Shown one piece after another: positions 40,515-52,509 of a stretch of DNA of 64,000 bases; the stretch's first letter is position 1, and each line of letters starts with the position of its first letter. The translations under genes and the position numbers were made by a program. This DNA comes from Marinobacterium litorale DSM 23545. GTDB taxonomy: Bacteria > Pseudomonadota > Gammaproteobacteria > Pseudomonadales > Balneatricaceae. Where the stretch lies: positions 186,001-250,000 of the forward strand of contig NZ_AUAZ01000001.1 of NCBI RefSeq assembly GCF_000428985.1. The letters are read 5' to 3'. Under the pieces are notes generated by a model. That model did not search any database and was not told the origin of the DNA. It saw nothing but the letters and a program-made list of their open reading frames with translations.

Positions 40515-41405
40515 TCATATCGGTTGATGTGCCCGCACCCGCTCGCGAAACTCGCTGGGTGTATGCCCGGTCTGCTTGCGAAAGAAACGAGAGAAATAGG
40601 CCGCGTCGTCATAGCCCAGTGAATAGGCGATCTGTTGAACCGACATGGTCGAATAGGCCAGGTCGCGCTGGGCGGCGTGGATCAAGCGGGTATTGATAAT
40701 GTGCAGGGGCGACTGGCCCAGCACGTCCTGGCAGATCCGGCGTAGCTGGCCGGCGGTGATCCCCATGGCCTGGGCATACTCCTCCACTGTTTTCAACGCC
40801 CCCAGATTGTTGTTCACCAGCGCCCGAAAACGCTCCACCTGTTCGGTTTTGCGGGAGCCGGCGGTGGGATGCGGTGCACGGATCTGCTGATCGACCCGGC
40901 GGATCTGCACCAGTACCGAGATCAGCAGGGCTCCGGCCGCGCTGATACCCTGACTGTCACTGGTCAGCGTCTCCTGCTCGATCAGCTCGAACAGGGTGGA
41001 AAGTGTTTTGTGGGTGCGCGGGTTGTCCGGCAGATCGGTAACAAAGGGTTTGTCGAAAATATCACTCATGCTCGGCATGGATGCCGCGATCATCGCCTCC
41101 AGCGGTTCCTGTGCGGCGGTGACTACCGAGCCATCCAGACCGGCCCCCATGTTGAACCCATGTACTGTCTGCGCCGGAATCAGAATAAAGCAGGGGGCCT
41201 TGAATGTGACACTGGCTCCATCAAGATGAACAACACCGCCTTTTTTCTGCACGTATAGCAGCTGTACCAGCGATTCGTGCTGATGCGGGTCGATCTTCCA
41301 CTCATAATGTTTGGCGCGCCGCGAGATGGGTTCATAATGGATTGATTCGAACCAACGCTGCTCCGGGGTCTCTCCATAGAGGGCATAGCTGGGGATGCTG
41401 CTCAT
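40515..41405 (-). CDS. AraC-family regulator (PobC/PobR-like)
   Basis: A 296-residue regulator. A cupin sensing domain occupies about 30-130 (HYEWKIDPHQHESLVQLLYV, LIPAQTVHGFNM). The two helix-turn-helix motifs lie at about 200-290: VEEYAQAMGITAGQLRRICQ and VQQIAYSLGYDDAAYFSRFFRKQTGHTP (landmarks). AraC activators of this kind control 4-hydroxybenzoate hydroxylase genes in pseudomonads. Here it lies divergent from the TRAP binding-protein gene, about 10 kb from pobA, so it could regulate the whole island. The inducer is unknown. Confidence 0.85.
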   Translation of the reverse strand: MSSIPSYALYGETPEQRWFESIHYEPISRRAKHYEWKIDPHQHESLVQLLYVQKKGGVVHLDGASVTFKAPCFILIPAQTVHGFNMGAGLDGSVVTAAQEPLEAMIAASMPSMSDIFDKPFVTDLPDNPRTHKTLSTLFELIEQETLTSDSQGISAAGALLISVLVQIRRVDQQIRAPHPTAGSRKTEQVERFRALVNNNLGALKTVEEYAQAMGITAGQLRRICQDVLGQSPLHIINTRLIHAAQRDLAYSTMSVQQIAYSLGYDDAAYFSRFFRKQTGHTPSEFRERVRAHQPI

Positions 41406-41571
41406 GTTCGTACTCCGACAAATGCACGAAATGTCCTATCAGTGGCCTGTTTTGTCAATTCGGATATTTCTCCGGATTCAATATTCTGGTTTTCAGGATC
41501 AGAGAACGTTTTATTAAACGTACCTCTCCGACAAGCCTGTTATAAATATAAAATAATTATTGGGTTATATC

Positions 41572-42591
41572 ATGAAAAATAAAAAACGCCTTATGGCCGT
41601 TGTAGCCGCTGCCGGTTTCTCCCTCACGCAAACTGTTTCTGCCGCTGATGTTAATCTGCGTTTTGCCCACTTCTGGCCGGCTAATTCCGGTATTGCCAAG
41701 ACGCTGGCGTCCTGGGGCGAAACCGTCGAAGCAGAATCTGAAGGCCGGATCAATGTGGAGATTTACCCCTCCCAGACATTGACCAAGGCAACCCAGACCT
41801 ATGACTCCGTAGTCCAGGGGATCGCCGATATGGGCGCGATTATTCAGGGCTACACGGCTAATCGTTTCCCGCTGTCGCAAATCGTCGAATTGCCGGGGAT
41901 CGTCAAGACCGGTGAGCAAGGCTCCTGTGTGCTGCAGAAGCTCTATGATGAGGGGCATCTGGACAGTGAGTACAACGATGCTCACGTGCTGTTTATGTTT
42001 ACCCATGGTCCGGGCCATATCCACACCAAGGGTAAAGCGGTAGAACAGCCATCAGATCTCAGCGGCATGATGGTTCGCCGCCCGACTGTGGTGGTAGGTG
42101 AGCTGCTTGAAGGCCTTGGCGGACAGCCCGTAGGCCTGCCAGCGCCGGATATGTACAGTGCCATGCAGCGCGGCATTATCAACGGCGTAACCCTGCCCTG
42201 GGAGGCGATGGCCTCATTTCGTCTGAACGAGCTTGCCGATCACCACACTCAGGTCGGCCTCTATTCGCTCGCGTTCGTGGTCACTATGAATCAGGGTACC
42301 TATGCCCGTATGCCGGAAGATCTTAAGAAGGTCATTGATGACAATACCGGTATGCGCTGGGCCGAGAAACTGGGCAAGGCCTACGATGAGCTGGATATGG
42401 TCGGCATCAAACAGGCCAGGGAGATGGGGCACACCATTACCGTGATTGAAGGCGGTGCTGACAACCCGGCCTGGAAACCCACGCTCGATCAGGTGACTAC
42501 CAACTATATCAGTGAGCTGAGTGGCAACGGTTTGCCGGCTGAGCCTATCTACCAGCGGGCCCAGCAGCTATCTACCGCCTGCGGCGCGTAA
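41572..42591 (+). CDS. TRAP transporter substrate-binding protein (DctP family), orphan
   Basis: A 339-residue periplasmic binding protein. Signal peptide ends near VSAADVNLRF. DctP features are LRFAHFWPANSGIAKTL, IYPSQTLTKATQTYDSVVQG, and the key Arg in MMVRRPTVVVGELL that usually salt-bridges a carboxylate ligand. No DctQ or DctM membrane subunits are in the window, so it either works with a distant carrier or serves another purpose. It is divergent from the AraC gene. ATG 41572 is chosen; upstream TTG codons lack a signal peptide. Confidence 0.87.
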   Translation: MKNKKRLMAVVAAAGFSLTQTVSAADVNLRFAHFWPANSGIAKTLASWGETVEAESEGRINVEIYPSQTLTKATQTYDSVVQGIADMGAIIQGYTANRFPLSQIVELPGIVKTGEQGSCVLQKLYDEGHLDSEYNDAHVLFMFTHGPGHIHTKGKAVEQPSDLSGMMVRRPTVVVGELLEGLGGQPVGLPAPDMYSAMQRGIINGVTLPWEAMASFRLNELADHHTQVGLYSLAFVVTMNQGTYARMPEDLKKVIDDNTGMRWAEKLGKAYDELDMVGIKQAREMGHTITVIEGGADNPAWKPTLDQVTTNYISELSGNGLPAEPIYQRAQQLSTACGA

Positions 42592-42648
42592 CCCACGTTA
42601 GTGTTCGCGGTCTGAGGTCGGTTGCGTAGGGTTAGCGGCCTCATCTTT

Positions 42649-42692
42649 CCGGTAGTCGTGTGTTCGTAGGCAAGCTCGATTACCGGCTTTTT
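42649..42692 (+). terminator. Probable terminator after the TRAP binding protein gene
   Basis: CCGGTAGTCG pairs with CGATTACCGG (9 of 10 bases, loop about 18), followed by CTTTTT. The long loop makes it moderate. Confidence 0.5.
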
Positions 42693-42803
42693 ATCCCCTC
42701 TTTTTTGGTGTTTAAAAATGCCATGGGATTCTTTTGTTTAAAAGCCGGGTTTTTATTAGTGATTTTAAAATAAATCCGCAATAAATTTTGAGGTTTATTC
42801 AAT

Positions 42804-51100: not shown

Positions 51101-51121
51101 CGACCTCGATCGCTTGAGATC

Positions 51122-51158
51122 AGCCCGCCTCAGCACTTATGTTCAGGCGGGCTTTTTG
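51122..51158 (+). terminator. Rho-independent terminator after the binding protein gene
   Basis: AGCCCGCCT (51122-51130) pairs with AGGCGGGCT (51145-51153), loop about 14, then TTTTT. It ends the importer operon before pobA. Confidence 0.88.
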
Positions 51159-51236
51159 TATCTCATGCATGTCAGTCAAAAGGTGTTCTAAAAGTACAAG
51201 TATAGGTGTCAATCTTCCATTCATAAGCGGGCTGCA

Positions 51237-51265
51237 CTCATGGAACATGGCGAGCTATCTATAAT
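51237..51265 (+). promoter_or_regulatory. Candidate sigma70 promoter of pobA
   Basis: TATAAT at 51260-51265 is a perfect -10 box, 29 bases before the start codon. The matching -35 region (about 51237-51242) is poor, which fits a promoter that needs an activator such as the AraC protein. Confidence 0.4.
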
Positions 51266-51294
51266 GAGAAACAAAAAAGTTAGAGAGACGTTCT

Positions 51295-52509
51295 ATGAAA
51301 ACTATCAAGACACAAGTAGCCATCATCGGTGCCGGGCCTTCGGGTCTTCTGCTGGGTCAACTGTTGCACAAGCAGGGTATCGACAACATCATTCTTGAGC
51401 GCGTAACCGGTGATTACGTACTCGGCCGTATCCGTGCCGGTATCCTGGAACAGGGTTTTGTTGAGCTGGTGCGTGAAGCCGGCGTCGATGAGCGGATGGA
51501 TGCCGAAGGCCATATCCACGAGGGTGTGGAGTTGGCTGTAAACGGTGAGCGCCACCGTATCGATCTGAAAGAACTGACCGGTGGCGATGTGGTCGTCTGC
51601 TACGGTCAGGTGGAGATCACCCGCGACCTGATGGAAGCGCGTCAGGCGGCGGGCCTTGAGACCTATTACGAAGCGTCCGAGGTTCAGCCCCATGATGTTA
51701 AATCAGATAGCCCCTCAATCACCTTTACCCATGGCGGTGAAGAGTATCGCCTGGAGTGTGATTACATCGCTGGTTGTGATGGTTTCCACGGTGTTTCCCG
51801 ACAGACCATCCCGGCGGAAATCCGCACCGAGCACGAGCGCGTGTACCCCTTCGGCTGGTTGGGTCTGCTGTCCGACACGCCTCCGTGCCATGATGAACTG
51901 ATCTACGCCAAGAGCGAGCGTGGTTTTGCCCTGGCCAGCCAGCGTAGCGCGACCCGTTCCCGTTACTATCTGCAGGTGCCGCTCACCGATAAGGTTGAGG
52001 ACTGGACCGACGAGATGTTCTGGGATGAACTCAAGGCGCGTTTGCCGAAGGAAGTGGCCGACAACATGGTCACCGGTCCTAGCCTGGAAAAGAGCATCGC
52101 ACCGCTGCGCTCGTTTGTCTGCGAGCCGATGCAGTACGGCAACCTGTTCCTGGTCGGTGATGCGGCGCACATTGTGCCGCCCACTGGCGCCAAGGGTTTG
52201 AACCTGGCCGCCTCCGACGTGGCTACGCTCTACAAGATCATGACCCGCGTCTACAAAGAGGGCGACAAGAGCTGTATCAGCCAGTACTCAGAGATCGCCC
52301 TGCGCCGCGTCTGGCACGGTGAGCGTTTCTCCTGGTGGATGACTAACATGATGCACAACTTCGGTGACGAGGTTGGCAGCAACGGCCTTGATGGCCAGAC
52401 CTTCACCCGCTTCATGGAGTCCGAGCTGGATTACTTCCTCAACCATGAGAATGGTCGCCGGGTGATTGCCGAACAATACGTAGGCCTGCCCTACGAAGAG
52501 CTGAAGTAA
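51295..52509 (+). CDS. pobA: 4-hydroxybenzoate 3-monooxygenase PobA
   Basis: A 404-residue class A flavin monooxygenase that converts 4-hydroxybenzoate and NADPH to protocatechuate. FAD-binding [19 protein letters not shown] is at the N-terminus, followed by [22 protein letters not shown] motif [15 protein letters not shown] near 160; GD motif [20 protein letters not shown] near 285. Ends with EQYVGLPYE, the PobA tail. Slightly longer than the 394-residue Pseudomonas enzyme. It has its own leader after the importer terminator. No pca genes are in the window, so protocatechuate must be degraded elsewhere. Confidence 0.95.

Follow-up and report, generated by a model that had tools for sequence, protein, structure and literature searches.

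A recurrent proteobacterial gene module beside pobA in Marinobacterium litorale and its likely route to 4-hydroxybenzoate

What do the genes next to pobA, which encodes 4-hydroxybenzoate 3-monooxygenase, produce in Marinobacterium litorale DSM 23545? The question is raised by a stretch of 64,000 nucleotides (the window, positions 186001 to 250000 of contig C1 in a genome of 4.38 Mb), for which a sequence-only reading had named an AraC-family regulator, two short-chain dehydrogenases (SDR1 and SDR2), a flavin adenine dinucleotide (FAD)-dependent desaturase resembling the 3-ketosteroid dehydrogenase KstD, a NIPSNAP protein, a Liv-type importer and PobA, and had proposed that together they carry cyclohexanecarboxylate to 4-hydroxybenzoate and protocatechuate. 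Open reading frames and family profile scans (NCBIfam and Pfam) of the window proteins placed all of these genes where they had been proposed and in the same families (Table 1). They also revealed one gene that had been overlooked, divergent from the AraC gene, encoding DctP, a solute-binding protein of tripartite ATP-independent periplasmic (TRAP) transporters. The functional proposal stood in part: gene neighbourhoods and shared control sites make a route ending in 4-hydroxybenzoate likely, whereas cyclohexanecarboxylate found no support as its starting compound.

The best-fitting substrate is a 4-oxygenated alicyclic acid, and we consider it on balance probable that the module imports such a cyclohexanecarboxylic acid and converts it to 4-hydroxybenzoate under the control of a PobR-like AraC protein. 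Briefly, an acid already oxygenated at C4 (4-hydroxy- or 4-oxocyclohexanecarboxylate) would be taken up, SDR1 and/or SDR2 would oxidize the 4-hydroxyl to a ketone, and the KstD-like enzyme would remove hydrogen beside the ketone, probably twice, since the ring is symmetric about its C1–C4 axis, leading to a dienone. This would tautomerize to 4-hydroxybenzoate with the assistance of the NIPSNAP protein, perhaps at the tautomerization itself, and PobA would yield protocatechuate. Ring cleavage would probably fall to a LigB-type dioxygenase encoded elsewhere in the genome, in which seven LigB-family matches were found and no match to the intradiol dioxygenase family PF00775. The AraC protein would activate the module, a related operator lying in front of pobA.

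The FAD enzyme was compared with its characterized relatives. Its residues Y130, Y379, Y550 and G554 align with Y119, Y318, Y487 and G491 of KstD1, which we take to be the catalytic residues of that protein, and this Tyr/Tyr/Tyr/Gly set is kept in all 32 module rows of the alignment (A3). The structures nearest to its predicted model (pLDDT, the predicted local distance difference test, of 89) are those of the steroid enzymes 7p18 and 4c3x, followed by the cyclohexanone dehydrogenase of Alicycliphilus denitrificans K601 (8am8 and 8am3). The latter shares the overall fold and the flavin-dependent desaturation of a small cyclic ketone; however, it is only about 21% identical and its ketone carries no carboxylate. 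In spite of the shared fold and the four catalytic residues, it is hardly credible that the enzyme is a steroid KstD. Its scores against three KstD models (372 of 793, 428 of 788 and 468 of 789 bits) reach 47–59% of their cut-offs, its gene neighbours are those of aromatic-acid metabolism, and in a tree obtained by a quick LG+G4 method (63 rows, 36 of them from the module, ChcC1 and ChcC2 being compared by model scores) the two solved KstDs fell outside the module clade, although both are long branches that join one another, and the tree shows no more than this outside position; the branch uniting all 36 module rows had a support of 51. A steroid KstD was rejected because of the missed cut-offs and this position, in agreement with the sequence-only reading. 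The model PRK06134 gave 700 bits for a cut-off of 747. A further difference from KstD is an FPH..R.KPG stretch found across the family, whose His353 and Lys359 are invariant in 44 of 44 alignment rows and correspond to a gap and a Leu in 7p18; from this alignment, both are candidates for binding the substrate carboxylate. Another KstD-like gene of the genome stands alone beside a glyoxalase-family gene on contig C11 (L036, 9298–11031).

The module is not confined to this genus. A scan for the FAD gene gave at least 580 confirmed loci, and the best 80 comprised one from the genus (L054), 63 denoted here as module A (L055–L117) and 16 more distant ones (L118–L133). Relatives of SDR1, AraC and NIPSNAP accompanied the FAD gene in 57, 53 and 46 of these 80 loci, respectively, and two of the loci counted as distant (L118 and L119) still contained all three. 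The AraC–SDR–FAD–NIPSNAP(–SDR) set is thus a recurrent proteobacterial module, beyond chance, and one plasmid search returned 136 plasmid records with a relative. In 11 of the 63 loci outside the genus, PobA was encoded no more than about 10 kb away (tblastn, at least 48% identity; L058, L060, L079, L093, L095, L098, L102, L106, L107, L114 and L116), in several gene orders; L098 and L114 resemble each other, and in an additional locus the only match was below 28% identity. In Burkholderia and Paraburkholderia, PobA is followed by divergent AraC and SDR1 genes, while in alphaproteobacterial loci, including L095, L098 and L114, the AraC, NIPSNAP and PobA genes are consecutive on the same strand. 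In L063, a DctP homolog 67% identical to that of the window is found upstream of SDR1–FAD, accompanied by a pair of genes read as DctQ and DctM; no TRAP membrane subunit genes lie beside the DctP gene of the window. Genes of one cluster of the major facilitator superfamily, of the aromatic-acid symporter kind, occur in 21 of the 63 loci, and the one member scanned was related to PcaK (516 bits, cut-off 770) and TIGR00895 (398 bits, cut-off 418.55), below both cut-offs.

The link to PobA extends beyond physical proximity. Among 49 genomes drawn from the 63 module-A loci, PobA was detected in 48 at E 1e-60, in 38 of them above the curated cut-off, the sole exception being a Pseudomonas (G486). 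The background frequencies were 15 of 323 in Gammaproteobacteria (the M. litorale genome included) and 37 of 250 in Burkholderiales, although these contrasts are inflated because module genomes are often those of large generalists. The Burkholderiales sample contained two genomes with a module-type FAD gene (65–66% identity), both with PobA, one of which (G474) is also among the 49, and 13 with only 42–50% FAD relatives, six of them with PobA. The comparison of 48/49 with 6/13 (Fisher p = 2.5e-5) is the fairest contrast, yet its two sides differ in taxonomy.

A second line of evidence came from putative operators. A 40-bp block in the gap between the AraC and DctP genes shows almost no variation among six Marinobacterium genomes. 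In other bacteria, the best operator site lay in the gap between AraC and SDR1 or FAD in 35 of 48 loci, or 31 of 44 when training loci are excluded. Each of the four training loci among the 35 was scored by a model from which it had been omitted, and the loci include several closely related ones from Caballeronia and Pseudomonas. The operator model was built from 22 non-redundant sites out of 32 of these 35, with no Marinobacterium rows. Applied to the window, it ranked position 41422 first (38.7 bits), position 51183, upstream of pobA, second (18.0 bits) and a third site at 10.0 bits. The top rank of the former is partly circular, because the sites of the model were first found by their likeness to the Marinobacterium block, while that of 51183 is not. 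The site upstream of pobA is also the best or second-best in the pobA stretches of G001, G002, G003, G005 and G006 (12.6–22.2 bits). The regulator itself would bind these sites in response to an inducer. It resembles PobR/HpaA-type proteins, whose genes are often divergent from those beside them, and at one offset it keeps six of the nine 4-hydroxybenzoate-binding residues given for PobR in PMC12285266 (two of nine at the next-best offset; numbering inferred, with no alignment to PobR itself). It differs from them in the other three pocket residues and in a score well under the cut-off of its best model (163 bits against 274.65), and the Agrobacterium PobR site in that paper bore no clear resemblance, by eye, to the operator.

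The genus provides a view of how the module relates to pobA. The FAD gene itself, or a relative with 78–86% identity, is present in six of eight same-genus genomes, the present one included (in G004 split over two contigs), and a Marinobacterium zhoushanense record shows the same gene order. In G001 and G005 the order is AraC–DctP–SDR1–FAD–NIPSNAP, a gene read as GGDEF/EAL, and PobA; in G002, LivK and PobA are separated by a porin-like gene, so named by reading the sequence. The gene pobA was likewise found in six of the eight genomes and not in G004 (87% complete) or G007. In G002, pobA and the gene for an AraC-type regulator flank the module, while in G003 these two genes stand side by side near htpG, with no module at that site; the two regulators are 92–93% identical. 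The module therefore arrived at, or departed from, the pobA locus as one unit. The regulator adjoining pobA in G003 presumably controls it; no close copy was found in G000, G001, G005 or G006, which have relatives of 30–33% identity except G000, with none at E 1e-15. The GGDEF/EAL-type gene just upstream of pobA was seen in three relatives of this genome, at L032 (10827–13214), L034 (10937–13243) and L135 (9017–11476), and not in the window.

Besides the taxonomic imbalance mentioned above, several observations weigh against a dedicated route into pobA. At the module sites of G001 and G005, SDR2 and the Liv genes were not found, and in Marinobacterium pobA adjoins htpG irrespective of the module. 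In 13 of the 48 loci the best operator match lay outside the expected gap. Regarding the site in front of pobA, 5 of 200 Markov windows also reached 18 bits, so that on its own it is only suggestive. Moreover, of the 58 upstream regions belonging to all pobA hits of the module genomes, 15 scored at least 15 bits and 43 did not, compared with 4 of 39 control regions, a difference that is not significant (p = 0.07); the controls were 14 regions from the Gammaproteobacteria sample other than that of M. litorale and 26 from the Burkholderiales sample, 40 in all, with one duplicate dropped. In 485 shuffles, 99% of the scores were at most 8.7 and the maximum was 17.9. The site is conserved in six Marinobacterium genomes, one of which (G003) lacks the module, and its presence there and in the four controls suggests a general feature of pobA. 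The sequence at 51183 would thus be a pobA-type operator found on some pobA genes, with the module or without it, which the module appears to use too.

Finally, genes reminiscent of quinate/shikimate clusters (AroE-like, TIM-barrel or tandem NIPSNAP) occur in 19 of the 63 module loci, three of which have genes read by eye as AroQ. A hydroaromatic acid of the quinate/shikimate kind (dihydroshikimate-like, or a dihydroxycyclohexane acid) thus has to be weighed as the substrate, with the proximity of pobA reflecting a clustering of routes that feed protocatechuate. The genome itself offers a parallel in an island on contig C13 (L035 and L037), which combines two KstD-like FAD genes, tandem NIPSNAP, AroE-like, TRAP, AraC and PrpF-family genes, a LigB match, a protein that matches QuiC over half its length (316 bits, cut-off 1200) and a DctP 57% identical to that of the window. 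This island may encode a route that desaturates reduced shikimate-like acids and leads to protocatechuate. The presence of PobA in 48 of 49 module genomes, the related operator upstream of pobA and the alphaproteobacterial AraC–NIPSNAP–PobA row argue in the other direction, and we regard a hydroaromatic substrate as unlikely, though deserving of attention.

A 4-oxygenated acid is also preferred here over cyclohexanecarboxylate itself. As far as PMC9795900 and the names of the NCBIfam models go, the aerobic chc pathway (Yamamoto 2021) found in Sinomonas (Corynebacterium) cyclohexanicum ATCC 51369 aromatizes cyclohexanecarboxylate to 4-hydroxybenzoate by means of an SDR and KstD-like desaturation, with PobA following, as the window PobA, above its model's cut-off, would do. 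By the same sources it employs two desaturases, in contrast to the single FAD gene of the module, which has no cytochrome P450 gene nearby and is accompanied by NIPSNAP, DctP and Liv genes. The window proteins also fall far below the cut-offs of the equivalog models ChcC1 (NF053676, 341 of 1000 bits) and ChcC2 (NF053677, 556 of 900 bits), and for ChcB2 (NF053701, cut-off 350) SDR2 and SDR1 gave 205 and 161 bits. The supposition of a differently built version fits these scores. A P450 motif, searched with one pattern in open reading frames of at least 300 residues, and hence blind to divergent P450s, occurred in none of 67 module loci and in 1 of 16 others, although the pattern does detect the single P450 gene of the genome. 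This gene lies on another contig, near a gallate dioxygenase gene, and its product matched only two P450 models, both unrelated, at E 1e-35, from a library that may contain no model for a cyclohexanecarboxylate hydroxylase. It could in principle encode the missing 4-hydroxylase, as it stands beside ferredoxin-like and reductase-like genes and the published route ends in the same compound; in view of the empty module loci, cyclohexanecarboxylate is nevertheless a very unlikely substrate. The same contig (C33, L136) carries SDR and TRAP-like genes as well, and perhaps encodes a route for methoxy-aromatic acids.

It was also considered that the FAD enzyme might act on other cyclic ketones, or as a reductase, its link to 4-hydroxybenzoate being indirect. 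KstD-like enzymes vary in substrate, and the 14 loci with FAD relatives of 51–55% identity (L120–L133) contain no AraC relative and a single NIPSNAP match (L120, 35%). The PobA co-occurrence, the operator data and the intact catalytic residues speak against it, which makes it distinctly unlikely.

The on-balance reading, conversion of a 4-oxygenated acid, admits a bolder version, which we advance only tentatively. In it, a single desaturase performs both dehydrogenations of 4-oxocyclohexanecarboxylate, the NIPSNAP protein tautomerizes the dienone, and the whole is run as an added part of the pobA regulon, in a widespread and undescribed proteobacterial route. No description of the module was found in the titles and abstract openings covered, subscription papers being mostly outside that coverage. 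The closest Foldseek matches of the NIPSNAP protein were solved NIPSNAPs, none with a function in its name; LsrG and antibiotic-monooxygenase proteins were more distant matches.

Within the window, SDR1, FAD, NIPSNAP and SDR2 are tightly packed, with intergenic distances of 13, -23 and -4 bp, and the five Liv-type genes (46584–51100) are assigned at the family level, under the equivalog cut-offs. The promoter and terminator scans gave numbers close to those of shuffled sequence (7 against 6.5 and 11 against 10.3). Elsewhere in the window (35288–39627), a gene resembling that of tRNA selenouridine synthase lies directly upstream of a PhnD/C/E-like phosphonate-type ATP-binding cassette transporter, both named by reading the sequence.

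Table 1. Features of the pobA island, in window positions.
Feature	Position	Strand	Evidence
AraC-family regulator, PobR/HpaA-like	40515..41405	-	best NCBIfam match HpaA (TIGR02297), 163 bits, below cut-off 274.65
Probable AraC operator	41422..41461	+	two TGTC-containing half-sites, spacing 21 bp
DctP, TRAP solute-binding protein	41560..42591	+	PF03480 119 bits; PF03480 and NF037995 above cut-off
SDR1, short-chain dehydrogenase; putative 4-hydroxy acid dehydrogenase	42804..43625	+	family scans
KstD-like FAD desaturase	43639..45441	+	PF00890, 320 bits
NIPSNAP protein, ferredoxin-like alpha/beta fold	45419..45754	+	PF07978 76.1 bits, cut-off 22.3
SDR2, short-chain dehydrogenase	45751..46521	+	family scans
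LivH-type permease	46584..47435	+	family scan
LivM-type permease	47453..48433	+	family scan
LivG-type ATPase	48430..49152	+	family scan
LivF-type ATPase	49149..49847	+	family scan
LivK-type solute-binding protein	49916..51100	+	family scans
Possible AraC/PobR-type operator, 5' of pobA	51183..51222	+	half-sites 21 bp apart, 18.0 bits
PobA, 4-hydroxybenzoate 3-monooxygenase	51295..52509	+	TIGR02360 648 bits, cut-off 538.7
Terminator-like hairpin 3' of pobA	52549..52567	+	weak, as the region has 11 sites of this kind against 10.3 expected by shuffling

If the proposed route is correct, many soil and marine proteobacteria would aromatize alicyclic acids with a small set of genes and without a P450 in the operon, and the entry of reduced ring acids into protocatechuate metabolism would be explained. 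It would also provide a substrate for the KstD-like branch around the unassigned model PRK06134, and a function for a bacterial NIPSNAP family.

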